Positions 14,271 through 41,805 of a stretch of 64,000 bases of DNA are shown one piece after another (positions within the stretch are counted from its first letter, which is position 1; every line of letters begins with the position of its first letter). Both the position numbers and the translations under genes were made by a program. The stretch spans positions 2,914,001 through 2,978,000 of the forward strand of contig NZ_CP108143.1 of assembly GCF_036206005.1 (NCBI RefSeq), in the 5' to 3' direction. Source of the stretch: Streptomyces sp. NBC_00178. Its GTDB lineage: Bacteria; Actinomycetota; Actinomycetes; Streptomycetales; Streptomycetaceae. Under the pieces are notes generated by a model. It ran no database searches. It was not told where the DNA came from and worked only from the letters and a program-made list of their open reading frames with translations.

Positions 14271-14678
14271 GTCATGCGCTCCCTGCTGATCGTTGTGCCG
14301 GCGGTACCCCCGGTCCCGCCCGGATATCCCGGCCCACTCTAGTGCCGCGGTACGGGGCACCGGCCGGTCGTCCTCCGGTCGTGTTCGAGGGAAGACGCCG
14401 ACACGGAAGAGTTGGTTGCCGAACGAGTGTGCAGCACGTCCCGGGCAGGACCAAGCAGGCACTTTTGCACCCGTACTCGGCCAATCAAGATCACTTAGCG
14501 GTCACCCCCGGGCGTGTTGTCAGCGGCAGGTGCGAGGATGCCAGCAGCACGGAACCGTGTGGTCGCGAGACTCACGTTCCGTGACGACCTGTACCGGACG
14601 ACGCGTCCGTGCCGGGTGGGGGGAATCACAGGGCGGCTCCCCCTGCCGGCACCCCGCGCAGAAGGGACCGCTGACGCG

Positions 14679-22012: not shown

Positions 22013-22240
22013 GGAGCCAGGTACCGAGCGGTGCGGTCAGAAGGCCCGCCGTGAAGTGGAGGAGGCCGGCGAAATAGCCGGTACAGCACAGACGTTCGTC
22101 AACCTCGGGGCGGTCCGTTCACTCTCGTGCGGGCCGCCCTACCTCGCACTTCCCCCGAATGCCACGTCCGGCGTAACCAAGTCACTCCATCGGCCGTTTG
22201 CGGGCCACCTGCCCGCCCGCGAGCGCCCCCTGGATGTGTT

Positions 22241-24475
22241 GTGCCCCGGTTCAGTGTCATCGTGCCCGCGTACCGGGTCCAGGCGTACCTGCACGCGTGT
22301 CTCGACTCCGTGCTGGACCAGTCCTTCAAGGACTACGAGATCATCGTGGTCGACGACTGCTCACCGGACGCCTGCGGCCCGATCGCCGACGAGTACGCCG
22401 TCCGCGACCCCCGCGTCACCGTCGTGCACCTGCCGCACAACGCCGGACTCGGGCCGGCCCGCAACGCCGGGGTCGCCCGGGCCACCGGGGACTACCTCCT
22501 CTTCCTCGACGGCGACGACACCTTCGCCCCCGAGGCGCTCCAGGCCATCGCCGACCGGCTGGGGGCCACCGGCGGCCCCGACGTCCTGGTCTACGACTAC
22601 GCCCGCACCCACTGGTCCGGCGAGAGCGTGCGGAACACCTTCGCCGAACACCTCGCCGAGACCGGCCCGCCGTCCTTCCGCCTCGCGGACCGCCCGGAGC
22701 TGCTCAAGGTCCTGATGGTCGTCTGGAACAAGGCGTACCGGCGCGAGTTCGTCGAGGCCGAGGGCTTCACCTTCCCGCCGGGCTACTACGAGGACACCCC
22801 GTGGACCTACCCGGTGCTCATGGCGGCCGGGTCGATCGCCGTCCTGGACACCGTCTGCGTCGGCTACCGGCAGAGGCGCCGGGGCAACATCCTCTCCACC
22901 ACCACCCCCCGGCACTTCGACGTGTTCGACCAGTACGACCGCGTCTTCGCCTTCATCGACTCCCGGCCCGCGCTCGCGAGCTGGCGCCCGGTGATATTCC
23001 GCAGGATGCTCGACCACTTCTCGACGCTCTTCACCTCCCGGGGGCGTCTCCCGCGCGGCACCCGGGGGGAGTTCTTCCGCCGGGCCCGTGCCCACTGCCG
23101 CCGCTACCGCACCCCCGGCGCCCCGGTGCCGCGCCGCGCCCGCCTGCGGCACGCCCTGTTCCGGCTCGGCGCCCACCGCACCTACCGGGCGCTCTGGACC
23201 GCGCAGCGGCTGCGCATCCGGCTCGGGCGCGCCGGGTCGACGGTGCGCAGGGCCGCCCGCGGGGCCGCCCTGCAGCTCCACTACCGCGTGCAGCTGCGCC
23301 TCCCCGTCAGGGCGGGGGACGCGGTGTTCGCGGCGTACTGGCACCGGGGCTACACGTGCAGCCCCGCGGCCCTGGAGGCCACGGCCCGGGCACTCGTGCC
23401 GGGGATCCGGACCTCCTGGATCTGCCGGCCCGAGGACGCCGGCACGGTTCCCGAGGCGACCCGGGTGCTGCACCCGGGCACGGCCGCCTACTGGACCGCC
23501 CTGGCCCGGTCGAAGTACCTCGTCAACAACGTCAACTTCGACCGCAGGCTGGTGAAGAGGCGCGGGCAGGTGCTGCTGCAGACCCATCACGGCACGCCCC
23601 TGAAGACCATGGGCACCGACCTCGTGCACCGTCCCGCGGCCGCCGGGTCCATGGACTTCGAGCAGTTGCTGCGCAACGTCGACAAGTGGGACTTCTCCCT
23701 GTCGGCCAACCAGCACTCCACGCTCGTGTGGGAGCGCACCTATCCGTCCGGCTACACCACGCTGGAGTACGGCAGCCCCCGCAACGACGTCTTCCACCGC
23801 GCGGCCCCCGACCAGGCCGCCCGGCTGCGCGAGCGGCTCGGCGTCCCCCCGGGCAGCACGGCCCTGCTGTACGCGCCGACCCACCGCGACTACCGGCGCG
23901 AGCAGCGGCACACCCTGGACCTGGAACAGCTCGTCCGGGTCCTGGGCCCGCACTTCGTGATCCTGGCCCGCTCCCACTACCTGGACGCGACGGCCAGGGC
24001 GACCGCCGGGCACACCCGGCACCCGCGGATCATCGACGTCAGCGCCCACCCCTCCGTGGAGGAGCTCTGCCTCGCCTCCGACGGGCTGATCACGGACTAC
24101 TCGTCGCTGATGTTCGACTACGTCAACCTGGACCGCCCGGTGGTCCTGCACCTGGAGGACGCGCAGGCCTACGAGGCGGCGCGGGGGACGTACTTCGATC
24201 CGGCGGCCTTCCCGCCCGGGGCGGTGGCCCGGGACCAGGAGGAGCTGCACGAGATCTTCGCCACGGACCACTGGCGCGGCCCGCGCTCCGCCCAGCGCCG
24301 GGCGGCCTTCCGGGCCCGGTTCTGTCCGTACGACGACGGGCACGCCGCCGAGCGCGTGGTGCGCCGGGTCTTCCTCGGGGACACCTCCGGGCTGCCGGTC
24401 CCCGTGCCCCTGACGGGCCGGGGGCCGACGGGGGTGCCCCGCCAGGTGCCCGTGCGGGAGTACACCAACGGCTGA
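22241..24475 (+). CDS. GT2 glycosyltransferase / CDP-glycerol-type glycerophosphotransferase fusion (744 aa)
   Basis: I take GTG 22241 as the start, since the GT2 fold begins at residue 3 (FSVIVPAY); no good ribosome binding site is visible. The GT2 domain (about 3-230) is intact, with VVDDCSPD and LFLDGDD. A helical linker follows, then a TagF-type polymerase domain (about 375-735) carrying QTHHGTPLKTMG, GSPRNDVF, YAPTHRDY, the RSHYL histidine and TDYSSLMFDY. Enzymes of this type join glycerol-phosphate or ribitol-phosphate units (or analogues) into wall teichoic-acid-like chains at the inner face of the membrane. It is the first gene of the polymer locus and convergent with the GT4 gene. 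Confidence 0.87.
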   Translation: MPRFSVIVPAYRVQAYLHACLDSVLDQSFKDYEIIVVDDCSPDACGPIADEYAVRDPRVTVVHLPHNAGLGPARNAGVARATGDYLLFLDGDDTFAPEALQAIADRLGATGGPDVLVYDYARTHWSGESVRNTFAEHLAETGPPSFRLADRPELLKVLMVVWNKAYRREFVEAEGFTFPPGYYEDTPWTYPVLMAAGSIAVLDTVCVGYRQRRRGNILSTTTPRHFDVFDQYDRVFAFIDSRPALASWRPVIFRRMLDHFSTLFTSRGRLPRGTRGEFFRRARAHCRRYRTPGAPVPRRARLRHALFRLGAHRTYRALWTAQRLRIRLGRAGSTVRRAARGAALQLHYRVQLRLPVRAGDAVFAAYWHRGYTCSPAALEATARALVPGIRTSWICRPEDAGTVPEATRVLHPGTAAYWTALARSKYLVNNVNFDRRLVKRRGQVLLQTHHGTPLKTMGTDLVHRPAAAGSMDFEQLLRNVDKWDFSLSANQHSTLVWERTYPSGYTTLEYGSPRNDVFHRAAPDQAARLRERLGVPPGSTALLYAPTHRDYRREQRHTLDLEQLVRVLGPHFVILARSHYLDATARATAGHTRHPRIIDVSAHPSVEELCLASDGLITDYSSLMFDYVNLDRPVVLHLEDAQAYEAARGTYFDPAAFPPGAVARDQEELHEIFATDHWRGPRSAQRRAAFRARFCPYDDGHAAERVVRRVFLGDTSGLPVPVPLTGRGPTGVPRQVPVREYTNG

Positions 24476-24571: not shown

Positions 24572-25726
24572 TCAGCGCTCCAGGAACGCGAACAGTTCCT
24601 CCCAGCGGCACATGATCTCCGCCTCGGAGAACCGCTGGACGTTGATCCGCGCACGGTCCCCCATGGCGTCCCGCATGCGGGGGTTGCCGGTGAGCCGCAG
24701 CAGCTGGTCGGCGAGCGCCCCGATGTCCCCGGCCGGCGCGAGCAGACCGTCCTCGCCGTCCCGGACGATCTCGCGGACGCCCGGGGCGCAGTCGAAGGCC
24801 GCGCACGGCAGCCCGCTCGCCATCGCCTCCATCAGGGCCAGGGGGAAGCCCTCGCCGCGCGAGGACTGGACGAAGACGGAGGAGTCCGCGAGGGACGCCG
24901 GGACGTCGTCGGTGCGTCCGCGCCAGCCGACCGAGCCGTCCAGTCCCAGGGCGGTGCACTGCTCCTTGAGCGCCTCCTCGTCCTCGCCCGTCCCGTGGAT
25001 GTCCAGCCGCCACTGAGGGCGCTGCGGGGCCACCAGCGCCCAGGTGTCCAGGAGCATGTCGATGCCCTTCTGGTCCGTGAGCCTGCCGATGCTCGCCACC
25101 GACTTCTCCCGGCGCGGCGAGGGCACCTCGGGCAGGGCCGCCAGGGCGTTGGGCATGAAGCCCACGTTGTTCATCCCGTCGCCCGCCCAGCTGTCGGCGT
25201 CCTGCGCCGTGAGGACGAGCCAGCGGTCGAGCGCCGTGTAGTGGTTCCTGATCCAGCGGTAGCGGTGGCTCGCCCGTGAGTAGTCGTACGACTCGTGGCT
25301 CATCCCGATGACGCGCAGGCCCGACGTGTCCGCCTCGCCGACCCACTCCATCGCCCACACCTGGCTGACGATCACCACCCCGCCGGGCCGGGCCCCCCGG
25401 AAGATCTCGGAGAGCCGGCCGACGGCACGCCGCTTCTCCGCCACGCGGGCGGCCTCGGCGCGCCGGGCGGCGATCCGGAAGCGGTCCCGCACCCCCTGGG
25501 GGGCCCAGGGGGTCGGCGGGTGCGCCGGGTACAGGGCGGTGACGGGGTGACCGTGCGCCTCGGGCAGGGCCATCTTCCGCTCCGAGGCGTGCACGCCGAC
25601 GACGTGCACCCGGTGGCCCGCCTCCTGGAAGAGCTGGGCCATGCGGTGCGTCCAGCCGGTCACACCGCCGAGTTCGTCGGTGCTGTTGGCGACGACGAAG
25701 ACGTCGCGTTCACGGCTGCCGCTCAT
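24572..25726 (-). CDS. GT4-family glycosyltransferase
   Basis: A 384-residue GT-B protein starting at ATG 25726, overlapping the preceding gene's stop by one base (TGATG), so translation is coupled. The N-terminal half has NSTDELGGVTGWTHRM and the C-terminal half the GT4 hallmark E-x7-E region (GEGFPLALMEAMASGLP), together with the donor-site GRLTDQKG. Such retaining enzymes add hexoses from nucleotide sugars. In this operon it could glycosylate the polymer or its linkage unit. It is the last gene of a three-gene operon (32018 to 24572). Confidence 0.9.
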   Translation of the reverse strand: MSGSRERDVFVVANSTDELGGVTGWTHRMAQLFQEAGHRVHVVGVHASERKMALPEAHGHPVTALYPAHPPTPWAPQGVRDRFRIAARRAEAARVAEKRRAVGRLSEIFRGARPGGVVIVSQVWAMEWVGEADTSGLRVIGMSHESYDYSRASHRYRWIRNHYTALDRWLVLTAQDADSWAGDGMNNVGFMPNALAALPEVPSPRREKSVASIGRLTDQKGIDMLLDTWALVAPQRPQWRLDIHGTGEDEEALKEQCTALGLDGSVGWRGRTDDVPASLADSSVFVQSSRGEGFPLALMEAMASGLPCAAFDCAPGVREIVRDGEDGLLAPAGDIGALADQLLRLTGNPRMRDAMGDRARINVQRFSEAEIMCRWEELFAFLER

Positions 25727-28569
25727 CAGCGGTCCTCCCCGGTACGGATGGTGCGGGACGGGGCGAGGTGCCGGGCGAAGACGGTGTCGACGACCGTCCG
25801 GGCCGCGTCCCCCCGGTCGTAGGCACCGAACTCCGTGGCGAAGGCGGCACGCCGGTCCTGGAAACCGGTGTCCGCGCTCTTCAGGCGGGCCAGCACGGTG
25901 AACAGCTCCTCCTCGGTCGCCGCCACCGGCCCCGGCGCCTTCTCCCGCAGGTCGAAGTAGCTGCCCCGCTCGGCGGCGTACGCGTCGAGGTCGGGGGCGA
26001 ACAGGACGATCGGGCGGTCCAGGAGCGCGAAGTCGAACATGATCGACGAGTAGTCCGTGACCAGTACGTCGGTGAGCGCGAGGAGTTCGCTGACGTCGTG
26101 GTGGTCCGAGACGTCCACGACCGACCCGGGCGGGCAGGGCGGCAGGCTCGCCGCCTCCAGGTAGTGGGCCCGCACCAGCAGCGTGTACGTGTCGCCGAAG
26201 CGCTCGGCGAAGCGCGCCGCGTCCAGCAGGAGCCGCTGCCGCCTGCGCCTTCCGGGGCCGCCCCGGAAGGTCGGGGCGTACAGCACGACCTTGCGGTGGT
26301 CGGGGAGGCCCAGCCGGGCCGCGAGCTCCGGGCGCGGCAGCCGCCCCTCGGCCTCGGTCCGGGCCCGCGCCGCGAGGAGGACGTCGTTGCGCGGGTATCC
26401 CGTGCGCAGCAGGGTCTCCTCGGGCAGCCGGTAGGCGCGCGCCAGGGTGCGCTCGTCGTGCGGGGAGCGGACAAGGAAGTGGTCGAACCGGCCCACCGCC
26501 TGCTGGAGGCGCTCGCGCTGCGGGGCGTTCTGCATCCGCACCCGCGTCTCGTCGAAACCCATCCGCTTGTACGCCGACCCGTGCCAGGTCTGCAGGTAGG
26601 TGGTGCCCCGGGGCTTGTCGAGGTTCTGCGGGAACCCCTGGTTGTCGACCCAGTACTCCGCCCTGGCCAGGGCCCACAGATAGCGCCAGGACCAGCGGCG
26701 CACCAGCCGGGCGTCCGCCGGAAAGCCCTCGGGGGTGTCGGCGTACGCCCACACGCAGCGCAGCCGCAGTCCGCGGGCCCGCACCTCCTCGTGGACGGCG
26801 CGGGGGCTGTCGCCGTAGCAACTGCCCATGTGGCTCTCGAACACCACGCTGCCCCTGCGCACGGGAAGCCGCAGGAACCAGGAGCGGTACACGGAGACCT
26901 TGAGGCCCCGGGCGTGCAGCCGGTCCCTGCGCCTGCCGAGCGCCCTCACCAGGAGCTTGACCCGGCGCGCGGGGCGGAAGTGCGTGGCGTAGTGGACCAG
27001 CCGTCGCGCCGTGCGGGCGGGCCGGCCGCGGGACTCCAGGCGGAGCGCCAGATGGTCCCGGGTGGTGACGTAGGGCTGCCAGGTGTCGCCGGTCAGCCCG
27101 CCGAGCCGGGGCCGGGCCGGTGACCGGTCGTCCGGGCCGACGAGGTCGTGGGCGGCGAAGAGGTCGCTGACCGAGCGGGTCCGGCCGTCCTCCACGACCA
27201 TCCGGGCGTCCCAGACCGTGTCGCGCGGACCCAGCGGGCGGACGGCGCCGGTGAGGTCGAAGCGGGCCGACCAGTCGATGCCGGTGGCGTCGGCCCTGAG
27301 GTCGTCCACCGGGACACGGAAGGCGCGGGAGCCGTCCCGTACCCGGAACTCCAGGTGGGCGCCCAGGGTTCCGTCCGGGTCGGGGCCGGTGTGGCCGGGC
27401 AGGACGATCCGCCCCCGCAGCTGGACCGCCCGCCCGTCCGCCTGGTAGCGGGTGAGCCGGTTCATGAGCTTGAGCTCGCCGAACACGCGGTACTGGTGGC
27501 CGAGTCCGGTGACGTCGAGCGCGGGGTCGGTCCCGTCGTCCCAGTGCACGCGCCCGTCCTCGCCCGTCCGGAGGGGCGAGACCACGGTGCCCCGCCGGCG
27601 CAGGGCGTACGCCGCGCCCAGCACCCCGTCCGCGTCACCGTGCTGGAGCAGTCGTACGCCGACGCGTTCGACGGGCGGCAGGGTCAGGAGGGCCGCGTCC
27701 GGGACGCAGTCCGGCAGCACGCGGGAGGCCGTGGCGGCGATCCCGGCCCGCTCGGCGGCTGGCCGCTGGGGGAAGGTCCGCACGAGGGGGACCAACCGGT
27801 CCCGCAGGAAGGCGCGGTCCCGCTCCTCGCGCAGCTCCGACAGCCCCTGCGCCACCAGGACATGGCACACCCGCCGGTGTGCCTCCACGAGCCCGGCGAG
27901 GTCCCGTCCGTCGTCGGGCAGGGCCCTGCCCGACACGATCCGGCGGCGTACGAGTGCGATGCGGCCCACCACGGACGCGGCCAGCGGCCCGAAGAGGACG
28001 CCGCTGCGGGTGAGGTCCTCGGAGTAGCGCAGGGCGTGCCGCTCCAGTGCGGCGCGGCGCACGCAGAACCCGGACACCAGGGCGTCGTGCACGGCCAGTT
28101 CGGGTGCGTCGGTGAACCGGCGGACGGTCCTGGAGTCCGCGAACAGCTGCTGCTGCCAGGAGGGTTCGCGCTCCTTGGTCCCGTCCTCCGTGAGCCGGCT
28201 CCACCGCCCGGCGACCAGGTCGGCTCCGGTGCCCGTCCCGGCCTCCAGGAGGTTGCGGCAGGCGTGCTGCTGGAGGCACTCGCCGGCGTCGAGGACGAGG
28301 ACGTACGTGCCCCGCGCCCCGTCCAGGCCGGCGTTGCGCAGGACCGCGACGGAGTCCGACGCGGCCTCCACGACGCGGACGCGGTCGGGGGACCGCCCGG
28401 CAAGTGACCCGGCCGCCGTCCGCACCTCGTCGGACGCGGCGGGGGCGAGGACCACGACGACCTCGACGGCACGCAGGCTCTGGCCCAGCACGGACTCCAC
28501 GGATCCGCGCAGCGCCTCCTGTCCGCACGCGGCGGCGGTGACGACGCAGCTGAAGTCGGGAGCGCTCAT
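25726..28569 (-). CDS. CDP-glycerol-type glycerophosphotransferase with degenerate GT2-like N-terminus (947 aa)
   Basis: It starts at ATG 28569, overlapping the preceding stop by 4 nt (ATGA). The first ~220 residues follow the GT2 fold but have lost its signatures: VVVLAPAASD stands where VVDDGS is expected and VLDAGE where the D-x-D appears, so donor binding is doubtful. A beta-rich middle region follows. The C-terminal TagF-type domain (about 590-935) is intact, with QTWHGSAYKRMG, GYPRNDVL, YAPTFRGG, RAHYL and TDYSSIMFDF. It should transfer an alditol- or glycerol-phosphate unit to a growing wall polymer. It is the middle gene of the operon with the 1150-residue fusion and the GT4 enzyme. 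Confidence 0.85.
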   Translation of the reverse strand: MSAPDFSCVVTAAACGQEALRGSVESVLGQSLRAVEVVVVLAPAASDEVRTAAGSLAGRSPDRVRVVEAASDSVAVLRNAGLDGARGTYVLVLDAGECLQQHACRNLLEAGTGTGADLVAGRWSRLTEDGTKEREPSWQQQLFADSRTVRRFTDAPELAVHDALVSGFCVRRAALERHALRYSEDLTRSGVLFGPLAASVVGRIALVRRRIVSGRALPDDGRDLAGLVEAHRRVCHVLVAQGLSELREERDRAFLRDRLVPLVRTFPQRPAAERAGIAATASRVLPDCVPDAALLTLPPVERVGVRLLQHGDADGVLGAAYALRRRGTVVSPLRTGEDGRVHWDDGTDPALDVTGLGHQYRVFGELKLMNRLTRYQADGRAVQLRGRIVLPGHTGPDPDGTLGAHLEFRVRDGSRAFRVPVDDLRADATGIDWSARFDLTGAVRPLGPRDTVWDARMVVEDGRTRSVSDLFAAHDLVGPDDRSPARPRLGGLTGDTWQPYVTTRDHLALRLESRGRPARTARRLVHYATHFRPARRVKLLVRALGRRRDRLHARGLKVSVYRSWFLRLPVRRGSVVFESHMGSCYGDSPRAVHEEVRARGLRLRCVWAYADTPEGFPADARLVRRWSWRYLWALARAEYWVDNQGFPQNLDKPRGTTYLQTWHGSAYKRMGFDETRVRMQNAPQRERLQQAVGRFDHFLVRSPHDERTLARAYRLPEETLLRTGYPRNDVLLAARARTEAEGRLPRPELAARLGLPDHRKVVLYAPTFRGGPGRRRRQRLLLDAARFAERFGDTYTLLVRAHYLEAASLPPCPPGSVVDVSDHHDVSELLALTDVLVTDYSSIMFDFALLDRPIVLFAPDLDAYAAERGSYFDLREKAPGPVAATEEELFTVLARLKSADTGFQDRRAAFATEFGAYDRGDAARTVVDTVFARHLAPSRTIRTGEDR

Positions 28570-31500
28570 GCCCGGTCCCCCTTCAGCATGCGGTCCACGA
28601 CCCGTGCCGACGCCGTCCCGTCGTCGAGGTCGCAGAACGACGCACGGAAGTTCGCGTACGCCTCGCGGTGGCCGGCCCCCGCCGCGTCCGGGTCGCGCAG
28701 CGCCTCGACGACATCGGCCGACGCGGTGAGCAGGGGACCGGGCGCCAGCTTCTCGAAGTCGAGGCAGAAGCCGCGCAGGGTGTCGCGGTAGTGCTCCAGG
28801 TCGTAGGTGTGGAAGAACATCGGGCGCCCCGTCTGCGCGAAGTCGAACATCAGGGACGAGTAGTCCGTGACCAGCACGTCGCTGACCAGCATCAGTTCCG
28901 CCACGTCGGGGTGGCGCGAGACGTCCCGCACGAAGTCGTCCTCGGGGATGCTGCCGCCGACCAGGTAGTGGCGGCGCACCAGCAGGACGTGATCGTCACC
29001 GAGGGCCTTCCGGGCGTGCGCCAGGTCCAGCTGGAGATCCAGTCCGTACAGCCCGCTCCGCCTGGGCCGGTCCTCGCGCCAGGTCGGGGCGTACAGGACG
29101 ACCCGCTTGCCGTGCGGCACACCGAGCGACTGACGGACGGCGGCGGCCGTCTTCGCCCGGTCGGCGGCGTACAGCAGGTCGTTGCGGGGGTAGCCGCACT
29201 CCATCACCTCGCCGGTGTGCCCGAACGCGCGGCGCAGTACCGGGGTGGAGAAGCGGTTGGGCGAGACGAGGACGCTCCACTGCGCGGCCCTCCGGGGCAT
29301 GGACTCCATGTACGCGGTGTCCGCGAACGCCGTGCCCGCGAGGTCGCGGCCGATGCGCTTGAGCGGGGTGCCGTGCCAGGTCTGGACGACGAACTGGCCC
29401 TCCGCCCGCTCGAACCACTCCGGCAGGTGGGTGTTGGTCACGATCCACCTGCTGCGGGCCAGCGCCTCGTGCCACTCGGCGCTGTGCAGGGCGACCGCGC
29501 GGACCCCGGCCGGCACGGCGGCCTGCTGGTCCCGCACCACCCAGAGGTGCTCGACGCCGGTGTCACGGCGGGCCAGTTCCTCCTGGACGGCGCGCGGCGA
29601 ATCCGAGAACTGGCGCCCGTCGAAACTGGAGTACAGGACGGTGTCCAGCAGTCCCGCACCGCGCGCTGCCGCGTACCGGGCGCGCAGCCGCCGCTGCCCG
29701 AACGCGCCCCGGTCGCGCACCGGCAGGGCACTGCCCGACGACAGGCAGAGCCGGTCGTGGAAGCGCCGCTCCAGGGTGAAGCGGCGGCCGCGCAGGTCGC
29801 GGTGGAGCGGCAGGCCGGCGTGCAGCTGGGGCACCGCCCGCAGCGGCAGGTACCGCTCGGGATCGGTTTCGCCGGGCGCCCGCAGGAAGGGGTACCACCG
29901 GCCCTCGGCCAGCGGCAGCGTGCCGCCGGGGCCCTCGACGGCCGAGGGCGCGACCGCCGTGCGGAAGTCCGCCCCCTCGCGCTCCACGGCGAAGGTGTTC
30001 TCCTCGTGGTGGCCGCTGTGGCGCAGGACCAGCTCCACCGCGCGCTCCGGCACGGCCGGGAAGGTCCCTTCCAGGAGCAGACCGCCGTCCTCGGTCCAGG
30101 ACACGCCCGCGACGACGGGCGGGACGGCCCGGTCGGTGAGGACCAGGTCGCCGGAGGGGTTGGCCGCGGCGTACACCTCGCGGCCGCCGGCCAGGGGGTA
30201 GCGACCCGCCTCCGTCTCCGGGCGGGCGGCGACCGTCAGCCGGCGCGCCCCGCCGACCAGCTGGACGCCCCAGTCCCCGTCGGTGCCGGGAAAGGCGTCC
30301 AGCGGCACGTCCGCGAAGAACCCGCGGCCGTCCTCGCCCACGCCCGGCGCCAGGGGGAACTCCCGGGTCTGCTTCGTGCGCCACTCCTGGATGCGCAGGG
30401 CCGTCGCCGTGTCCCGGCCCAGCACGCGCACCGCGATGCGGACCGCGTCGCCGGCCTCCGTCGCCCGGTGCCCTGCGAGCACGGCGTCGATCCGCTCGGC
30501 GCGCAGCTCCAGCTTGTTGCCGGACAGCAGGGGGACGACCCGCGTGCGTTCGTCGACGTACCGCACGGCGGGCGCCGCCGGATTGCCGAGCAGGCGCATG
30601 GGGCCCCGGCGCGGCCGGCCGGCGCCGACGACGACGGACTCCAGCTTCCACAGGGTGCGGGCCCCGCGGGCCGTGCGCCTGCCCGCCAGGCGCCGCGGGT
30701 CGACGACGGTCTCGAAGCCGGAGCGCTCGTAGCCGTGCAGCGAGCGGCCGGAGCCGGCCGCCGCCTCCTCCGTCGTGCTCCGGCGCAGCCGCAGCGGGAT
30801 CACCCTGCGTCCCGACCTCAGCCAGCCGGTCCCCGCCGACCTGCCGGGGGCGTTGCGCACGTACGCGTACCCCTTGAGGTGCAGCAGGCCCTCCCGCCAC
30901 ACGGCCTCGGTGAGGTGCGCGTGCACGGGGAGGTCCGCCCCGGACAGGGCGGTGACGCGGCGCGGGAGCGGGGCGTCGATGCCCGGATGGACGGCCCTCG
31001 GCCGCAGGGCGCCCCGGACGTGGAAGGTGTCGCGGTCGGTGCTCTCGTGGGCCAGCAGGGCGAGCAGTTCCGCCGTCCTGCGCTGCCGGATGAGGAGCCA
31101 CTTGACGCGCAGGTGCAGCGGGAGCGCGTCGAGGACCGCCGGGTCGACCGTGTCGGCGAAGGCGTTCGCGTGGGTGAGGAAGGCTTCGTGGTAGCTCTCG
31201 TCGCCGTCCGGCAGGGCCTCGATGAACAGCCACAGGTCGCCGGAGAGCGCGTGCTCGTCGTAGCGCCGCTTCGCCTCGGCCATGCCCCGTCCGGCGAGGA
31301 ACCGGCTGACGGTGGAGACCGCGGTGACCCGGTCGCGGATGCCCCGGGCGACGGCGCGGCGGGTGGTGATCGAGCCGTCCCGGTCCCGCCAGTGGTAGAC
31401 CGGCGCGGCGACGACGTCGACGCTCCGGGCCAGGAAGTACGCCGGGAGGACGACGGCGATGTCCTCGTAGAGGACGCCCGTGGGGAAGGCGAAGGCGTGC

Positions 31501-32018
31501 TGGTCCCAGAACGACCTGCGGAACACCTTGTTGCACGCGATGCGGTCGCCGAGCAGGACCCAGTCCCGGGTGATGTGCGTGGCCCGGCGGGACGTCTCCA
31601 TGGGCTTGCGGAACATCGGGGACTGTTCGAGCGCGCCGCCGGCGCGCAGCCTGAGCACGTTGCCGGTGGCGAAGTCCGAACCGGAGGCGTCGAGTTCGCC
31701 CAGCAGCCGGGCGAACGCGTCCGGCGGGACGACGTCGTCGCTGTCGACGAAGGCCAGGAACCCGGCGTCCGGGTGCGCGTGGCCGGCCCCGGCGTTGCGG
31801 GCGGCCCCGAGCCCGGCGTTCTCCTGGCGGACGAGACGGAAGCGCGGATCCTTCGCCGCGTACTCCCGGGCCACACCGGCGCTGCCGTCCGTCGAACCGT
31901 CGTCCACCATGACGACTTCCAGGTCGGCCATGGTCTGCCCGGCGAGTGAGCCGAGGCAGGCGCCGAGGTAGTCCTCGACGTTGTAGAGCGGGACGACGAC
32001 GGTGAGACGGGGTGCCAT
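28566..32018 (-). CDS. GT2 / CDP-glycerol-type glycerophosphotransferase fusion (1150 aa)
   Basis: I take ATG 32018 (MAPRLTVVVPLYN) as the start; an in-frame GTG four codons upstream is possible. Three parts are visible: an intact GT2 domain (about 1-230; MVDDGSTDGS, FVDSDD), a helical and beta-rich middle (about 230-760), and an intact TagF-type transferase domain (about 790-1140) with QTWHGTPLKRIG, GYPRNDLL, YAPTWRED, RRHYL and TDYSSLMFDF. Both active sites appear usable, so one protein could add a sugar and a polyol-phosphate in turn to give a glycosylated repeat. It heads a three-gene operon that starts after a strong hairpin. It is a close paralogue of the gene at 35917. Confidence 0.87.
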   Translation of the reverse strand: MAPRLTVVVPLYNVEDYLGACLGSLAGQTMADLEVVMVDDGSTDGSAGVAREYAAKDPRFRLVRQENAGLGAARNAGAGHAHPDAGFLAFVDSDDVVPPDAFARLLGELDASGSDFATGNVLRLRAGGALEQSPMFRKPMETSRRATHITRDWVLLGDRIACNKVFRRSFWDQHAFAFPTGVLYEDIAVVLPAYFLARSVDVVAAPVYHWRDRDGSITTRRAVARGIRDRVTAVSTVSRFLAGRGMAEAKRRYDEHALSGDLWLFIEALPDGDESYHEAFLTHANAFADTVDPAVLDALPLHLRVKWLLIRQRRTAELLALLAHESTDRDTFHVRGALRPRAVHPGIDAPLPRRVTALSGADLPVHAHLTEAVWREGLLHLKGYAYVRNAPGRSAGTGWLRSGRRVIPLRLRRSTTEEAAAGSGRSLHGYERSGFETVVDPRRLAGRRTARGARTLWKLESVVVGAGRPRRGPMRLLGNPAAPAVRYVDERTRVVPLLSGNKLELRAERIDAVLAGHRATEAGDAVRIAVRVLGRDTATALRIQEWRTKQTREFPLAPGVGEDGRGFFADVPLDAFPGTDGDWGVQLVGGARRLTVAARPETEAGRYPLAGGREVYAAANPSGDLVLTDRAVPPVVAGVSWTEDGGLLLEGTFPAVPERAVELVLRHSGHHEENTFAVEREGADFRTAVAPSAVEGPGGTLPLAEGRWYPFLRAPGETDPERYLPLRAVPQLHAGLPLHRDLRGRRFTLERRFHDRLCLSSGSALPVRDRGAFGQRRLRARYAAARGAGLLDTVLYSSFDGRQFSDSPRAVQEELARRDTGVEHLWVVRDQQAAVPAGVRAVALHSAEWHEALARSRWIVTNTHLPEWFERAEGQFVVQTWHGTPLKRIGRDLAGTAFADTAYMESMPRRAAQWSVLVSPNRFSTPVLRRAFGHTGEVMECGYPRNDLLYAADRAKTAAAVRQSLGVPHGKRVVLYAPTWREDRPRRSGLYGLDLQLDLAHARKALGDDHVLLVRRHYLVGGSIPEDDFVRDVSRHPDVAELMLVSDVLVTDYSSLMFDFAQTGRPMFFHTYDLEHYRDTLRGFCLDFEKLAPGPLLTASADVVEALRDPDAAGAGHREAYANFRASFCDLDDGTASARVVDRMLKGDRA

Positions 32019-33723: not shown

Positions 33724-33800
33724 GTGCCTCTCCCAACGTTGCCGTGTGCGCGCGCTGTTGAACACAACGACGGCGCGGTGCGCAGGACACCCCCGGAGAT

Positions 33801-35816
33801 TCAGGCCGGGCCCACCGGGAAGATCCGCCGCACCACCCGCTCCGCCGCCCTCCCGTCGTCGTACGGGCAGAAGCGGCTGCGGAAGGCGGCGCGCAGGGCC
33901 GTCGCCTCCGGGGAACGCCAGGCACCGGTGCGCAGGAGCTCGAACAGCTCGTCCTGGGTGGTGGCCACCGCTCCGGGTGTGTCCCCGGGCCGCCCGGACA
34001 GCAGGTCGACGTAGGTTCCGCGCGATGCCCGGTACGCCTCCCAGTCGGGCGCGTAGGTGATGACCGGCCGGTCCAGGCACGCGTAGTCGAACACGAGGGA
34101 CGAGTAGTCGCTGATCAGCCCGTCGGAGGCGACGCAGAGTTCCTCGACGCTCGGATGCCCGGTGACGTCGACGACCCGCTCCGTCGCCTCCGTCCCGGCC
34201 GAGCGCCCGTAGAAGTAGTGGGCGCGTACCAGCAGCACTCCGCCGGGGCCGAGTGCGCGGGCCAGGCGCGCCACGTCCACCAGCGGGACGAACCCCCTGC
34301 GGTAGTCCCGGTGGGTCGGCGCGTACAGCAGGACGGTCGCCCCGGGCGCGATGCCGAGCTCCGCCCGGGCCTTCGCCGTCCGTTCCGCCGTGGCGGTGCA
34401 CAGGACGTCGTTGCGCGGATAGCCGTAGGGCAGCTGCTCGTACGTCGAGGGGTACACCCGGTCCCAGATCTCGGAGCTGTGCGGGTTGGCGGAGAGGCTG
34501 AAGTCCCACTGGTCGGTGTGCGCCACGATCCGCCCGAAGTCGACTCCCCCGGTCAGCGCCGGATACGGGTACTGGTCCAGGCCCATCGTCTTCAGCGGCG
34601 TCCCGTGGTGGGTCTGGAGGTAGACCTGGCCCCGGCGTTTGGTGAAGCCCCCCGGAAAACTCGAGTTGTTGACGAGGTACGTCGCGGTGGCCATGGTCCG
34701 CCAGTAGGCGCGCGAGCCCTCGATGACGTACGGCACGCCCGGCGGCATCCGGTCCCGGTGCCGGGAGGAGACGACCCAGACGCCCCTGATGTGCGGGACA
34801 AGTTCCCGGGCCTTGGCGTAGACGGCGGCGGGATTGCACGCCACACCCCGGTTCCAGTAGGCCGCGTAGACGGCGAGGCGGGGATCCAGCGGGCGGTGCA
34901 GGTCGGCCCGGTAGAGGACCCGCATCAGCCGGGCGCGTACCGACTTGTGGACGGCGCGCAGGACGGCGCGCGCCCGGCTGCGCGCGGCACCGACGGCCGC
35001 CCGGACGCGGTACGCGGTGTACGTGCCGGGCAGACCGGCCGCGCGGAAGAAGGCGGCGCGGTCGGCCGGGGCGATGCGGTCCCGGTCGCCGAGCACCTCC
35101 GTCAGGTGCGCGGTGCGCGCCGCGGCCGCCCGCGGGTCGCCGCCGGTCGCGCCGGCCAGCCGGTCGTGGGCGTCGATCACCGCGAAGTGCGCGCGGCCCG
35201 GCGTCGTGGCGGGTGTGCCCCTGCGGCGCGGCCGGTGGCGGACGCAGACCCGGTCGAGCCGGGCCAGGGTCCCCGCGTCCGCGGCGAGGAACAGGGCACG
35301 GTGGACGGGCACGACATCGCCGTACAGGCCCTCGGTGAAGCGGAGTCCGGCGTCGTCCCGGAAGGCCCGGCGGATCACCTGGCCGCGGGCGGCCGGAATC
35401 GCGGGGCCCGGTCGCGGCGTGCCCCGCCAGTCGACGCACTCGTGCCCCACGCCCAGCACGTCCGGCCGGTCCGCCGTCAGCCGTGCGGCGATCTCCGCGC
35501 CCGCACCAGGGAGCAGCAGGTCGTCGCCGTCCAGGAAGAGCAGGTACGTCCCCCGGGCCGCCGCCGCACCGGCGTTGCGGGCGGTGCCGGCGTCCCAGGG
35601 GCCGTCGAGCGTGAGCACGCTCAGGCGGGGGTCGCGCGCCGCGCACTCGCGGGCGACGGCGAGTTCCGGCGCACCGGCCGCGTCGCCGGAGCCCACGGCG
35701 ATCAGCTCCAGCTCCACCGGTCCGCCCCCGGGAGCCTCCTGTGCGGTCACGGAGTCCAGAGCGGCCCTCAGATACCCGTGGGCATGGTGGGCGGACACGA
35801 CGACACTGAGGAGCAT
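33801..35816 (-). CDS. GT2 / CDP-glycerol-type glycerophosphotransferase fusion (671 aa)
   Basis: It starts at ATG 35816. The GT2-like domain (about 1-220) keeps the LFLDGDDLL motif, but the first signature is altered (LIAVGSGDAAG in place of VVDDGS). The TagF-type domain (about 310-665) is intact, with QTHHGTPLKTMG, GYPRNDVL, YAPTHRDY, RAHYF and TDYSSLVFDY. The sequence and the QTHHGT variant resemble the 744-residue enzyme at 22241 more than the long paralogues. It is first in a minus-strand operon with the two methyltransferases (gap 77 nt) and divergent from the 1139-residue gene. Confidence 0.86.
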   Translation of the reverse strand: MLLSVVVSAHHAHGYLRAALDSVTAQEAPGGGPVELELIAVGSGDAAGAPELAVARECAARDPRLSVLTLDGPWDAGTARNAGAAAARGTYLLFLDGDDLLLPGAGAEIAARLTADRPDVLGVGHECVDWRGTPRPGPAIPAARGQVIRRAFRDDAGLRFTEGLYGDVVPVHRALFLAADAGTLARLDRVCVRHRPRRRGTPATTPGRAHFAVIDAHDRLAGATGGDPRAAAARTAHLTEVLGDRDRIAPADRAAFFRAAGLPGTYTAYRVRAAVGAARSRARAVLRAVHKSVRARLMRVLYRADLHRPLDPRLAVYAAYWNRGVACNPAAVYAKARELVPHIRGVWVVSSRHRDRMPPGVPYVIEGSRAYWRTMATATYLVNNSSFPGGFTKRRGQVYLQTHHGTPLKTMGLDQYPYPALTGGVDFGRIVAHTDQWDFSLSANPHSSEIWDRVYPSTYEQLPYGYPRNDVLCTATAERTAKARAELGIAPGATVLLYAPTHRDYRRGFVPLVDVARLARALGPGGVLLVRAHYFYGRSAGTEATERVVDVTGHPSVEELCVASDGLISDYSSLVFDYACLDRPVITYAPDWEAYRASRGTYVDLLSGRPGDTPGAVATTQDELFELLRTGAWRSPEATALRAAFRSRFCPYDDGRAAERVVRRIFPVGPA

Positions 35817-35916: not shown

Positions 35917-38900
35917 ATGAAGCCACTCCTCAGCGTCGTCGTCCCCGTGCACAACGTCGAGGACTACCTGCGGGAGTGCCTCGCCTCGCTGGCCGGCCAG
36001 TCCCTGAAGGACATCGAGGTGGTGCTGGTCGACGACGGCTCGACGGACGGGAGCCGCCGCATCGCGGAGGACTTCGCGTCACGGGACGCTCGCTTCCGCT
36101 GCGTCCACCAGCCCAACGCCGGGCTGAGCGCCGCCCGCAACACGGGGGTCTCCCACACCGACCCGGGGGTGCCGTACCTGGCGTTCGCCGACAGCGACGA
36201 CGTACTCGTCCACGACGCGTACGAACGGATGCTGGCGTCCCTGGAGTCGACGGGATCGGACCTGGTCACCGGCAACGTGTGGCGGCTGGACGAGCAGGGC
36301 AGGCAGCAGGCCTGGCAGTACCGCTGGCTGACCGGCGACCGCCCGCGCACCCACATCACCCGCGACCCGCGGCTGCTGGCCGACCGGGTCGCGTGGAACA
36401 AGGTGTTCCGGCGCACGTTCTGGGACCGGCACGCCTTCTCCTTCCCGGTCGGCCGGCTCTACGAGGACACGCCGGTGATGATCCCCGCGCACTACCTCGC
36501 CGACGCGGTGGACGTCCTGCACGAACACGTCTACCTCTGGCGGGTGCGGGAGGGCTCGATCACCCGGCGGCGCACCGACGTCCGGGGCGTCCGGGACCGC
36601 ATCGCGGCCTGCGAGCGGGTCAGCGCGTTCCTCGCGGACCGCGGTCCCGGGCAGCGGCTGCGCTACGACGCCTCGTGCCTGCGCGACGACTTCGTGTACT
36701 TCCTGGAAGGGCTGCCGATGGGCGGCCCCGAATACCGCGCGGCCTTCATGGAGGACGCGGGCGCCTTCCTCGACCGCGCGGGCGACGCGGCCCTGACCGG
36801 TCTGCCCGCCGAGGCCCGGATCAGGTGGCGGCTGGTCCGGGAGCGCCGGCTCGGCGAGCTGCTGGCCGTCCTGGCCTTCGAACGCGCCGACGGCAGCGGC
36901 ACGTTCACCGTCACGGGACCGCCGGGGAGGCGGCGCGCCGCCCATCCCGGGGTGGCGGGTGCCGGCAACGTGTCGGCGCGGCTCGGCAGCGGCGATCTGC
37001 CCGTGGTGGCCCGGCTGACGGAGTCCTCCTGGGGCGCCGACGGCCGGCTGCGGCTGCGCGGCTACGCCTACGTCCGCAACCTCCCGGCGGACACGGCCCT
37101 GCGGTCGCTGAAGGCGGGGCTGGTGAAGGAGGCGGGCGGCAGACGGCTGCGGGCCGTGCCCGTCCGCACGGTGCGGACCGACCTGGCCACGGCGGACTCC
37201 GGCCAGTCGCTGCACCGCTACGACCACGCGGGCTTCGAGATGGTCCTGGATCCGGGGCGGCTGGGGACCGGCACCTGGCAGGTGGGCGTGGTCCTCGCCG
37301 GGCACGGCACCGTGCGCCGGGCCGCCCTGCGCGCCACGGAGGCGGCGGCCGCGCAGCCGCTGGTCCACGACCTGGGCGACGGGCTGCGCGCCGTGCTCGG
37401 CTACCGGGACGGCCGACTGGAACTGGCCGTCGAGCGGCTGCCGGCACTGGCCCTCGCCCATGACGGCGGAGCGGAGACCGCGGAACTGACCGGCCGGCTG
37501 TACGGCGGCGCGCGCCCGGACACCCTCGTGCTCAGCCGTGACGGTTCGGCGGGGCACGCCTGCCCGGTACGGATCACGGACGGCGGCCCCGGCGGCCCGG
37601 AGGAGGCGCACTTCCGCGTCCGCGTGCCGCTCGCGGCACTCGCGGCCGAGGCCGGACCGCCCCCCGTCGCCTCCCCCGGGGAGACCCCGCCGCCCGGTGC
37701 GCGGTGGCGGGCCGTGCTCCTGACCGACGGGGGCGGCCAGGTGCCCCTCGCCGCCGCGCCGGACATGGCGCCGCCCCTCTTCGCCGACGCGGCGGGCCAC
37801 CTGGTGGCGGAGGTGACCGGCGAACCCCTCGTGACCGGCGCCTCGGCCGCGCCGGACGGCGGACTGCGGATCGAAGGGCTCGGGACCGGAGCCCTGGTGC
37901 TGCGTCACACCACCCTCGGCGAGACGGTGACCGTCCCCGCCGAGGAGCGGGACGGACGCTTCCGCGCCGTACTCGCCGAGCCGCCCCGCGAAGGGGACTG
38001 GGAGCTGTCCCTCGACGGCCGGCCCGTCCGCGTGACCGGCCTGCTCGCCGCCCGGCTGCCGGTCGCCGCCGGCGGTGACCGCTTCCGGCTCGGCCGGCGG
38101 CACGGCGACCGGCTGACCGTGCGCTGCGCGCCGCCGCTCGGGGACGCGGAGCGCAGCGCCCACCGCCGCGCCCGGCTGCGCTCGGCGCACTACCCGGCGC
38201 AGCGCGGACTGCCCCTGAGGGACGCGGTGCTCTACGCGGGAAACGGCGCGCCGCGCGCCGTCCACGCCGAGATCGTGCGCCGGGGCGCGGACGCGGAACA
38301 CCTCTGGGTCACCGACGGATCGGCGGGCGACGCCGCCCGTGTACCGGCCACCGCAGTCCCGGTCGTGGCGCACGGCGCCGCGTGGCACGAGGCGCTGGCC
38401 CGCGCGCGCCACGTCGTCGCGGCGGGCCCCCTGCCCGCGTGGTTCGAGCGCCGCCCGGGCCAGACGGTCGTGCAGACCTGGCACGGCGCCCCGCTCGGCC
38501 GGTTCGGCCTGGACCTCGCGGGCACCCTGTACGCCGACCACCAGCACCTGGACACGCTGGCCGCCGGCGCGGCCCAGTGGTCGGTCCTGGTCTCCCCGAG
38601 CAGCTTCGCGACCCCCCACCTGCGCCGGGCACTGGCCTACGGGGGCGAGGTCCTGGAGGCGGGCTCCCCGGCCGGTGACCTGCTGTGCGCACCGGACCGG
38701 GACGGAACGGCCGAGCGGGTGCGCGGGGCGCTGGGCATCCCGGAGGGGCACCGCGTGGTGCTCCACGCCCCGACGTACCGGGACCACCTCGCGCACGCCC
38801 CGCGCAGCCTCCCCGCCGGCTCGCCGCCGCTGTACCGCTGGGACCCCGCACTCGATCACGCGGAACTGGCGCGGTCGCTCGACGGGCGCACCACGGTGCT

Positions 38901-39336
38901 GGTCCGCAGGCATCCCCGGGTCACGGGGAGCGTGCCGGCACACCCCGCGCTGCGGGACGTGTCCGGGCATCCGGACGTCGCCGAGCTGCTGCTGATCGCC
39001 GACGTGCTGGTCACCGACTACGCGGGGCTGGCCTTCGACTTCGCGCACACCGGCCGCCCGATGCTCTTCCACACCTACGACCTGGAGCACTACCGGGACA
39101 CCGTGCGCGGCTTCTGCCTCGACTTCGAGACGCGCGCGCCCGGGCCCCTCCTCGTCAGCACCCAGGAGGTGGCCCAGGCGCTGCGGGCCACCCCGGCGTC
39201 GGCGGCCCTGCACGCGGACGCCTACGAGAGCTTCCGGCGGGACTTCTGCGGTCCGGCCGACGGCGGTGCCGCCCGCCGCGTCGTGGACCGGCTCCTCGAC
39301 GGGGCGCCGGAGGACTCGCGGCCGCTCAGCCCTTGA
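35917..39336 (+). CDS. GT2 / degenerate CDP-glycerol-type transferase fusion (1139 aa)
   Basis: It starts at ATG 35917. The architecture is the same as the 1150-residue protein: an intact GT2 domain (VLVDDGSTDGS, FADSDD; about 1-230), a helical/beta middle, and a TagF-type domain (about 800-1120) that aligns along its whole length. Several family signatures of the last domain have changed: HGAPLGR for HGTPLKR, GSPAGD for GYPRND, RRHPR for RRHYL and TDYAGLAFDF for TDYSSLMFDF. The framework is well kept (HTYDLEHYRDT is shared). The GT2 half is probably active, while the polymerase half may be inactive or have a new role. It converges on and overlaps the TetR gene by 11 bp. Confidence 0.85.
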   Translation: MKPLLSVVVPVHNVEDYLRECLASLAGQSLKDIEVVLVDDGSTDGSRRIAEDFASRDARFRCVHQPNAGLSAARNTGVSHTDPGVPYLAFADSDDVLVHDAYERMLASLESTGSDLVTGNVWRLDEQGRQQAWQYRWLTGDRPRTHITRDPRLLADRVAWNKVFRRTFWDRHAFSFPVGRLYEDTPVMIPAHYLADAVDVLHEHVYLWRVREGSITRRRTDVRGVRDRIAACERVSAFLADRGPGQRLRYDASCLRDDFVYFLEGLPMGGPEYRAAFMEDAGAFLDRAGDAALTGLPAEARIRWRLVRERRLGELLAVLAFERADGSGTFTVTGPPGRRRAAHPGVAGAGNVSARLGSGDLPVVARLTESSWGADGRLRLRGYAYVRNLPADTALRSLKAGLVKEAGGRRLRAVPVRTVRTDLATADSGQSLHRYDHAGFEMVLDPGRLGTGTWQVGVVLAGHGTVRRAALRATEAAAAQPLVHDLGDGLRAVLGYRDGRLELAVERLPALALAHDGGAETAELTGRLYGGARPDTLVLSRDGSAGHACPVRITDGGPGGPEEAHFRVRVPLAALAAEAGPPPVASPGETPPPGARWRAVLLTDGGGQVPLAAAPDMAPPLFADAAGHLVAEVTGEPLVTGASAAPDGGLRIEGLGTGALVLRHTTLGETVTVPAEERDGRFRAVLAEPPREGDWELSLDGRPVRVTGLLAARLPVAAGGDRFRLGRRHGDRLTVRCAPPLGDAERSAHRRARLRSAHYPAQRGLPLRDAVLYAGNGAPRAVHAEIVRRGADAEHLWVTDGSAGDAARVPATAVPVVAHGAAWHEALARARHVVAAGPLPAWFERRPGQTVVQTWHGAPLGRFGLDLAGTLYADHQHLDTLAAGAAQWSVLVSPSSFATPHLRRALAYGGEVLEAGSPAGDLLCAPDRDGTAERVRGALGIPEGHRVVLHAPTYRDHLAHAPRSLPAGSPPLYRWDPALDHAELARSLDGRTTVLVRRHPRVTGSVPAHPALRDVSGHPDVAELLLIADVLVTDYAGLAFDFAHTGRPMLFHTYDLEHYRDTVRGFCLDFETRAPGPLLVSTQEVAQALRATPASAALHADAYESFRRDFCGPADGGAARRVVDRLLDGAPEDSRPLSP

Positions 39337-39931
39337 GCGCGCGGACCGCCGAGGCGGCCAGATCGTCCAGGTAGCCCTTCGGGAGGCTGCCGCGGACGAC
39401 GGCCAGACGCCAGTAGAGCGGCCCGACGATGAGGTCGAGCGCCCGGTCCGGATCGCTGCCCTCGGGAAGCTCGCCGCGTGCGACCGCCTCGCGCACGACC
39501 ACGGCGGCCACGCCCTGCTGCGGGTCGAGCAGGGCGGCCTTGATGGCGTCGGAGATCTCCGGGCTGCGGGCCGCCTCGACCAGCAGATCCGGGATCACCT
39601 GCGAGGCGAGGGGGTGCCTCAGCGCGTACGAGGCCAGTTCGAGCACGGCCCGGACGTCCCCGTACAGCGACCCGGTGGCGGGCGCCGGCATGCCCTGTGC
39701 CGCGACGGCCGCCACCAGGTCCAGGACGAGGTGCAGCTTGGACTTCCAGCGCCGGTAGACGGCGGTCTTGCCCACCCCCGCGCGGCGGGCGATGCCCTCG
39801 ATCGACATCCGGGCGAATCCCACGGCGGCCAGCTCCTCGAAGACGGCGACACGGATCGCGTCGGTCACGTCCTCCCGCAGCACCGCGGCGCCCGCCGGGG
39901 TGCGGCGCCCGGTTCGCCGTTCGGTGTTCAT
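39326..39931 (-). CDS. TetR-family transcriptional regulator
   Basis: A 201-residue protein from ATG 39931. The N-terminal helix-turn-helix (about 18-65) reads FARMSIEGIARRAGVGKTAVYRRWKSK in segments typical of TetR, and the C-terminal two thirds is the all-helical ligand-binding domain. It is divergent from the TagG-like permease gene with 139 bp between the starts and overlaps the 1139-residue transferase gene at its 3' end, so it is likely to control export and perhaps its own gene. The ligand is unknown. Confidence 0.92.
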   Translation of the reverse strand: MNTERRTGRRTPAGAAVLREDVTDAIRVAVFEELAAVGFARMSIEGIARRAGVGKTAVYRRWKSKLHLVLDLVAAVAAQGMPAPATGSLYGDVRAVLELASYALRHPLASQVIPDLLVEAARSPEISDAIKAALLDPQQGVAAVVVREAVARGELPEGSDPDRALDLIVGPLYWRLAVVRGSLPKGYLDDLAASAVRALKG

Positions 39932-39947
39932 CTGCCGAATGATAGAC

Positions 39948-39993
39948 CGTAACGACGAAACGGTTGCGTTGCGACGCACAAACGTCCTACTGT
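39948..39993 (+). promoter_or_regulatory. Putative tagG-like promoter with overlapping inverted repeat
   Basis: A -35-like TTGCGT (39964-39969) and a -10-like TACTGT (39988-39993) are separated by 18 bp, upstream of the permease start at 40071. An imperfect inverted repeat, CGTAAC (39948-39953) and GTTGCG (39963-39968), five of six bases symmetric, overlaps the -35 and is a candidate TetR operator. This is read by eye only. Confidence 0.35.
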
Positions 39994-40070
39994 CAGCGTC
40001 ACGACGATACGGTCCCGTCCCCACCGCCCGGATCGTCCGCCCCTCCCCAAGCCCCCCGTCGAAAGCGAAC

Positions 40071-41012
40071 GTGGTGAGCCAGACAGCAGCACCGCCGGCC
40101 CCGGTGGACACCGCATCTCCCACCCTCCTCCCCGTGTACGAGCCCGGCGAGCTGGCCGCGCTCGCCGCCCGGCACGGGCTCACCGTCAGCGGGGCCCGGC
40201 CGACCCTCGGGGAGTACATCCGGCAGCTCTGGGGGCGCAGGCACTTCATCACCGCCTTCGCCACCGCCAAGCTGACCGCCCAGTACAGCCAGGCGAAGCT
40301 CGGCCAGATCTGGCAGATCATGACGCCGCTGCTCAACGCGACGGTCTACTACTTCATCTTCGGCGTCCTGATGAACACCAAGCACGGAGTCCCCGACTTC
40401 GTGCCCTTCCTCGTCACCGGCGTCTTCATCTGGACCTTCACCTCCAGCTCGATCACGGCCGGCACCCGGGCCATCAGCGGCAACACCGGCCTCGTGCGGG
40501 CGCTGCACTTCCCCCGGGCGTCGCTGCCGATCGCGCTGGCCATCCAGCAACTGCAGCAACTGCTCTTCTCTCTGGGCGCGCTGTTCCTGATCCTGCTCGT
40601 GTTCGGCCAGTACCCGCAGCCCTCCTGGCTGCTGGCGGTCCCCGCACTCGCCCTCCAGGCGGTGTTCAACACCGGCGTCTCCATGGTCATGGCGCGGCTC
40701 GCCGCCAGGACACCAGACATCGCGCAGCTCACCCCCTTCATCCTGCGCACCTGGATGTACGCCTCCGGCGTCATGTGGAGCCTCGACACGCTGCTTTCCG
40801 GGGACCGCGTGCCCCGGCTCGTCCTGCTCGCGCTCGAATGCAACCCGGCCGCCGTCTACATCGACCTGATGCGCTACGCCCTGATCGACAGCTTCACCGG
40901 CGCGCAGCTGCCCCCGCACGTGTGGGCCGTCGCCGCGGGCTGGGCGCTCGTCGCCGGCGTCGGCGGCTTCGTCTACTTCTGGAAGGCCGAGGAGAGGTAC
41001 GGACGTGGCTGA
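40071..41012 (+). CDS. TagG-type polysaccharide/teichoic acid ABC exporter, membrane subunit
   Basis: A 313-residue ABC-2 type permease from GTG 40071 (the next codon is also GTG). A 50-residue cytoplasmic tail precedes six hydrophobic helices (first about 85-105, last about 290-305). The amphipathic stretch LGEYIRQLWGRRHFI and the AKLTAQYSQAKLGQIWQI coupling helix are typical of TagG/Wzm proteins, which move lipid-linked polymers from the inner to the outer face of the membrane. The ATPase gene overlaps its 3' end by 8 bp. It lies at the end of the polymer locus and probably exports its product. Confidence 0.92.
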   Translation: MVSQTAAPPAPVDTASPTLLPVYEPGELAALAARHGLTVSGARPTLGEYIRQLWGRRHFITAFATAKLTAQYSQAKLGQIWQIMTPLLNATVYYFIFGVLMNTKHGVPDFVPFLVTGVFIWTFTSSSITAGTRAISGNTGLVRALHFPRASLPIALAIQQLQQLLFSLGALFLILLVFGQYPQPSWLLAVPALALQAVFNTGVSMVMARLAARTPDIAQLTPFILRTWMYASGVMWSLDTLLSGDRVPRLVLLALECNPAAVYIDLMRYALIDSFTGAQLPPHVWAVAAGWALVAGVGGFVYFWKAEERYGRG

Positions 41013-41805
41013 CACCGCCGACACCCGTGTGCCCACCGTCGTCGTCGACGACGTCCACATCACCTACACCGTGAACGGCGCCCGCACAGGCCGCGGCAGC
41101 GCCACCTCCGCGCTGAACCGGATCGTGTCGCGCAAGCAGCCCCGGGGAGCACGCGAGGTGCACGCCGTGAAGGGCGTCAGCTTCGCCGCGTACAAGGGCG
41201 AGGCGATCGGGCTGATCGGTTCCAACGGTTCCGGGAAGTCGACATTGCTCAAGGCCATCGCGGGTCTCCTGCCGCCGTCGAAGGGCCGGGTCCACACCCA
41301 GGGCCAGCCCTCGCTGCTCGGTGTGAACGCCGCCCTGATGAGCGACCTGACCGGGGAGCGCAACGTCGTGCTCGGCGGACTGGCCATGGGGATGACGCGC
41401 GAACAGATCCGCGAGCGCTACCAGTCCATCGTCGACTTCTCCGGCATCAACGAGAAGGGCGACTTCATCACCCTGCCGATGCGCACCTACTCCTCCGGCA
41501 TGGGCGCCCGGCTGCGCTTCTCCATCGCCGCCGCCAAGAGCCACGACGTCCTGCTGATCGACGAGGCCCTGTCCACCGGCGACGCGAAGTTCCAGCGGCG
41601 CAGCAGGGACCGCATCATGGAGCTCCGCGAGGAGGCCGGCACGGTGTTCCTGGTCAGCCACAGCAACAGGTCGATCACCGACACCTGCGACCGCGCGATC
41701 TGGCTGGAGGCGGGCACCCTCCGGATGGACGGCCCGGCCGAGGACGTGGTCGCCGCCTACGAGGAGTTCACCGGCCCGGCGAAGCCGAAGAGGCCGAAGA
41801 AGTAA
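41005..41805 (+). CDS. TagH-type polysaccharide/teichoic acid ABC exporter, ATPase subunit
   Basis: A 266-residue ABC ATPase starting at GTG 41005 with GGAGAGG upstream. Motifs are Walker A GSNGSGKST (about 72-80), signature YSSGMGARL, Walker B VLLIDEALSTGD and the switch histidine VSHSNRSI. The N-terminal insertion (about 18-50, basic) before the HAVKGVSF strand is a feature of the TagH/Wzt group. There is no C-terminal substrate-recognition domain of the kind seen in some Wzt proteins. Together with the permease it should export the polymer made by the cluster. A perfect 21-bp hairpin follows. Confidence 0.92.
   Translation: MADTADTRVPTVVVDDVHITYTVNGARTGRGSATSALNRIVSRKQPRGAREVHAVKGVSFAAYKGEAIGLIGSNGSGKSTLLKAIAGLLPPSKGRVHTQGQPSLLGVNAALMSDLTGERNVVLGGLAMGMTREQIRERYQSIVDFSGINEKGDFITLPMRTYSSGMGARLRFSIAAAKSHDVLLIDEALSTGDAKFQRRSRDRIMELREEAGTVFLVSHSNRSITDTCDRAIWLEAGTLRMDGPAEDVVAAYEEFTGPAKPKRPKK

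Follow-up and report, generated by a model that had tools for sequence, protein, structure and literature searches.

We found that one of the TagF-type (PF04464) proteins of this Streptomyces genome, here called PA, joins an intact glycosyltransferase to a polymerase-like domain whose donor pocket has been degraded across a whole clade of orthologues. Judging from the residues of that pocket, canonical CDP-polyol transfer has very likely been lost in the core of the PA clade. Our overall reading, which we hold to be probable, is that PA glycosylates wall teichoic acid and that its TagF-type domain has given up polyol-phosphate transfer and holds the chain or a partner. The chances are evenly balanced for the more specific picture of a lineage-wide pseudo-polymerase, in which the TagF-type domain turned non-catalytic under selection and directs the fused glycosyltransferase as a chain reader or partner-binding regulator. 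In the open-licence literature we found no described pseudoenzyme of the CDP-glycerol phosphotransferase family.

PA lies on the forward strand at 35917..39336 of the window, by which we mean the whole 64-kb stretch of DNA that was analysed, and its 1139 amino acids comprise a GT2 domain, a beta-rich middle and a PF04464 domain; this reading frame, its length and its domains had been described in an earlier, sequence-only reading and were borne out by ORF and profile searches. PF00535 matches residues 6-167 (E 1.9e-35) and PF04464 matches residues 778-1127, the latter with about 240.8-244 bits against a curated cut-off of 22.1, which places PA inside the family. Exactly five PF04464 genes were detected by profile search in the whole genome, all of them inside the window, and PA has the lowest score of the five (about 244 bits, the others 330-398). 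Its canonical sister PB (28566..32018, reverse strand, 1150 aa) has the same domain order with all motifs intact, and the end-to-end alignment of the two that had been claimed holds, with 48% identity across residues 1-1136 and the stretches HTYDLEHYRDT and GFCLDFE in both proteins. The other paralogues are PC (25726..28569, reverse strand) and PD (22127..24475, forward strand), both canonical GT2 plus PF04464 proteins, and PE (33801..35816, reverse strand), a canonical TagF-type protein and the divergent neighbour of PA.

The GT2 domain (35917..36882, forward strand, residues 1-322) resembles those of TarP, TarS and RmlT. An AlphaFold2 model of PA based on 56 sequences (mean pLDDT 88.7, pTM 0.85) matches TarP over residues 1-322 (Z 28), and residues 1-633 match the multi-domain RmlT and TarS (Z 28 for TarS), where the overall rmsd is high, the modules probably being arranged differently; Z is 26-28 across RmlT, TarS and TarP. 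The architecture of RmlT and TarS extends to residue 633, within the beta-rich middle region (36883..38196, forward strand, residues 323-760). The metal-binding DSDD (D92-D95; 36190..36201, forward strand) is conserved in PA orthologues, and E183-D184 (36463..36468, forward strand), the likely catalytic base, is invariant in the orthologue alignment and falls in the RmlT D198 region by alignment offset. With VDDGSTD, DSDD and ED kept in PA and in nearly all of its orthologues, the GT2 half is intact, as previously claimed, and PA has the GT2 fold, the metal-binding acidic motif and the catalytic Asp of a TarS/TarP/RmlT-type enzyme. The TagF-type GT-B fold is also clear, residues 742-1134 aligning with TagF 3l7k over 366 residues (Z 39.8, rmsd 3.1).

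Within the PF04464 domain (38218..39300, residues 768-1128), which keeps the TagF fold, alignment of the paralogues with TagF recovered all four motif changes reported earlier. Numbering residues by S. epidermidis TagF, where the motifs are H444-K449, G508-D513, R582-L586 and T621-Y630, TagF HGTPLK (444-449) reads HGAPLG in PA (38482..38499; T446A and K449G, with H444 kept), GYPRND (508-513) reads GSPAGD (38662..38679; R511A and N512G, with D513 kept), RMHYL (582-586) reads RRHPR (38905..38919; R582 and H584 kept), and TDYSSVMFDY (621-630) reads TDYAGLAFDF (39013..39042; S624A and S625G, with D622, Y623 and D629 kept), all on the forward strand. Two further features had escaped the sequence-only reading: both catalytic histidines, H444 and H584, are retained in this copy as H856 and H999, and a pocket loop has been deleted, with AGNGA (38236..38250, forward strand) at the site where TagF has SFGGKNYSDS and PB has SFDGRQFSDS.

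We compared these changes with a canonical reference of 201 domains of the PB, PC, PD and PE classes, for which relatives were gathered by genome scan, sorted by best-matching paralogue and aligned. The altered positions had been called the most constant ones, which holds for K449, R511, N512, S624 and S625 (98-100% constant in the reference) and fails for T446, Y509, Y585 and L586. PC (the 25726 paralogue) has S in place of T446, PD (the 22127 paralogue) already has S in place of Y509, and Y585 and L586 are variable among canonical enzymes; changes at these four positions are weaker signs, since canonical classes vary there too. Among the 52 columns that are at least 95% identical in the 201 canonical domains, N424, K449, R511 and S625 are wholly lost from the PA core, N512, S624, D629, G574 and F698 are mixed, and the other 43 stay. 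Elsewhere, a few relatives in the PD and PE classes likewise have E or R in place of H444, suggesting that pseudo-domains may occur in other branches.

Published structures place several of these changes in the donor pocket. The key residues of the Cps3D CDP-glycerol site that are shared with TagF are F391, H479, G480, T481, P482, R542, A573, R607, S647, S648 and D652 (PMC11666461). By alignment, with chain numbering three higher, Cps3D T481, R542, S647 and S648 correspond to TagF T446, R511, S624 and S625, and all four of these CDP-glycerol contacts are changed in PA, which sets its pocket apart from that of an active enzyme. The two catalytic histidines, Cps3D H479 and H609 by alignment, are both present. 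Pocket residues are over-represented among the lost columns, though modestly so (4/9 vs 5/43; Fisher p 0.037).

The PA orthologues (n = 58) group as a single clade (support 1.0) when the tree is computed without the key motif columns, and a PA-type domain was found in 25 of 150 evenly drawn Streptomyces genomes, counting the window's own. The earlier suggestion to look for the motif changes in orthologues was answered clearly, as 47 of the 58, the core sequences, are fixed for K449G, R511A and S625G, with G449, A511 and G625 in every one. The SF...SDS pocket-loop motif is absent from all 58, mostly by deletion. Basal members keep K449, R511 and S624-S625 with the loop motif already gone, and intermediates have lost R511 (L141, L142) or both K449 and R511 (L105). 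Pockets within the PA clade form a natural gradation, some near-canonical and others degraded. We also considered whether near-canonical basal PA occurs only where PB is missing; this was not supported, PB or PB-like genes being present in several such genomes.

H444, the proposed catalytic base of the TagF-type domain, is replaced in 7/58 PA orthologues compared with 0/80 PB (Fisher p 0.0019). The replacements, to N, D, P or R (L138, L139, L079, L143, L092, L105 and L076), represent five separate events: P twice, D, N and R. H444N, found in two species, is the substitution present in the TagF CDP-glycerol soak structures, according to the structure titles. Sequencing error is an unlikely source of these losses, since two species share H444N and two share H444D, the H444P of L092 is accompanied by neighbouring changes, and several of the copies are on long contigs. 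By comparison, H584 is kept in 58/58 PA and R582 in 57/58, and parsimony finds codon changes that are synonymous only at H584 (11 times) and G625 (7 times), indicating that part of the pocket is still under selection.

The strongest counter-evidence to a domain without catalysis comes from these same residues, because with H584 and R582 fixed the domain may still bind some ligand or use a different donor. PA might be a re-tooled transferase, still catalytic with another donor or polyol phosphate, whose pocket was reshaped by the loss of K449, R511 and S625. The practically invariant H584 and R582, the uniform G449, A511 and G625 of the core with synonymous changes at G625, and a dN/dS that is not relaxed all fit such an enzyme. 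However, the clade has lost the base H444 on five occasions, T446, N512, S624 and M627 change freely in the core, with D629 also varying, and the pocket-loop motif is gone, so we regard re-tooling as unlikely.

The comparison of dN/dS between the two domains that had been proposed earlier was run by pairwise Nei-Gojobori estimates in 36 genomes with both genes (PB dS 0.05-0.35; 177 non-independent pairs). In PA, the PF04464 domain (0.279) is close to the GT2 domain (0.265); the PB values are 0.250 and 0.208, respectively. The similarity of 0.279 and 0.250 suggests that the altered PA domain is about as constrained as the canonical PB domain. The middle regions give 0.51 in PA and 0.36 in PB, making the middle the fastest-evolving part of PA. 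Also counting against our preferred explanation are the presence of H444 in 51 of 58 PA, this copy included, and purifying selection that almost matches that on PB.

Simple decay, in which a functionless polymerase half is eroding toward loss, has some evidence in its favour. In the window's own subclade, the PF04464 domain has 0.186 amino-acid differences per site in PA and 0.133 in PB, and GT2 is nearly equal (0.126 vs 0.119), which suggests mild extra relaxation of the PA PF04464 domain there; in other core genomes there is no excess (PA 0.165 vs PB 0.183). In addition, the PA frame is broken with PB intact in three genomes (L157, S. fulvorobeus; L158; L040), through loss or through sequencing or assembly error. 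Against this, dN/dS is 0.28, the fold is kept, and 47 sequences from across a diverse clade share the same fixed derived letters, leaving decay very improbable. A single decaying copy is rejected by those fixed letters and by a dN/dS that is not relaxed overall. The outcomes that were to have undone the sequence-only reading did not materialize: the key positions are invariant in canonical enzymes, and the orthologues are not one decaying copy.

The neighbourhood of PA points to wall teichoic acid. PA is convergent with a TetR regulator gene (39326..39934, start approximate, reverse strand) in the place of S. roseosporus tagR, which is divergent from an ORF holding a tagG-like ABC permease (39768..41012, forward strand, with a true start probably beyond tagR); a tagH-like teichoic acid export ATPase follows (41005..41805, forward strand). 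In S. roseosporus, TagR, tagG and tagH have the same arrangement and have been studied as a wall-teichoic-acid export system, in which the gene downstream of tagR was termed hypothetical (PMC10269677); from its position, we infer that this gene should be PA. Two Ser/Thr kinases and an FHA-FtsK/SpoIIIE protein are encoded beside the teichoic-acid cluster (11250-14462, reverse strand; 14514-17975, forward strand). Between PB and PE are two methyltransferase genes, one of them TylF-like (32135-33016 and about 33013-33925, both reverse strand). TylF-like methyltransferases usually carry out sugar O-methylation. Methylated glucose has been reported on Streptomyces wall teichoic acid, and S. griseus wall polymers contain ribitol phosphate (PMC13274773); S. 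griseus carries core-type PA. About 450 kb from the window, a second IspD-type gene (525-residue frame; G000:C1:2459953-2460642, L161) may represent a TarI-TarJ fusion, which would fit CDP-ribitol, and the profile search of the genome gave a TagD match only below the cut-off.

Gene order also bears on whether a dead PA domain might form a complex with PB (or PE) and set polymer chain length or its start and stop. In core-clade genomes PA and PB occur together in one gene cluster, the two have a common architecture, and dimers are possible for TagF-like capsule enzymes (PMC11666461, PMC10299916). PE adjoins PA in the opposite direction in most loci, including basal ones, but some of those basal loci adjoin PE without PB in the stretch examined, and such a regulatory partner seems to us improbable.

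We instead favour a glycosyltransferase with a retired polymerase domain. The GT2 half and beta-rich modules (residues 1-633) of PA would glycosylate wall teichoic acid, a sugar addition inferred from fold likeness to RmlT, TarS and TarP and from the tagR-tagG-tagH neighbours. The TagF-type domain would have lost its ability to transfer polyol phosphate from CDP donors, and may then position the polymer chain, or another protein (PB or the exporter, for example), close to the GT2 site. The pairing of a GT2 enzyme with a pseudo-polymerase is the part of the earlier proposal that is well supported, by clade-fixed pocket losses, repeated H444 loss, and retention of both fold and purifying selection; scaffold, primer selector and chain terminator, the jobs it suggested for that domain, are candidate roles.

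Annotation tends to treat any PF04464 domain as that of a polymerase or a primase. With one of five copies probably not a polymerase, sequence-based counts of teichoic-acid polymerases would be wrong for PA-bearing species. S. coelicolor SCO2997, which has been described as a homologue of TagF that takes part in sporulation (PMC3937824), is apparently in the corresponding chromosomal region and may be the counterpart either of PA or of one of the canonical paralogues. Streptomyces wall teichoic acid also carries the umbrella toxin receptor (PMC13274773), and its decorating proteins may therefore have a bearing on interspecies competition.

Three sets of known systems resemble PA in part. With S. 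epidermidis TagF, a CDP-glycerol polymerase (3L7I-3L7M), this copy shares the PF04464 fold, H444 and H584; unlike TagF, it has T446, R511, S624, S625 and the neighbouring K449 changed, the pocket loop deleted and an RmlT-like glycosyltransferase fused. RmlT, TarS and TarP share the GT2 domain, and RmlT and TarS also have beta-rich modules after it, but none of the three has a PF04464 domain. An architectural parallel comes from the TagF-like capsule polymerases Cps3D, Cps1B and Bcs3, which like PA carry another transferase and a TagF-type domain in one chain. In polymerases of this type each of the two domains is active, and mutating a single site is enough to stop polymer synthesis (PMC5974469). 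PA lacks the two intact active sites of such a bifunctional enzyme, as its TagF-type pocket is degraded.
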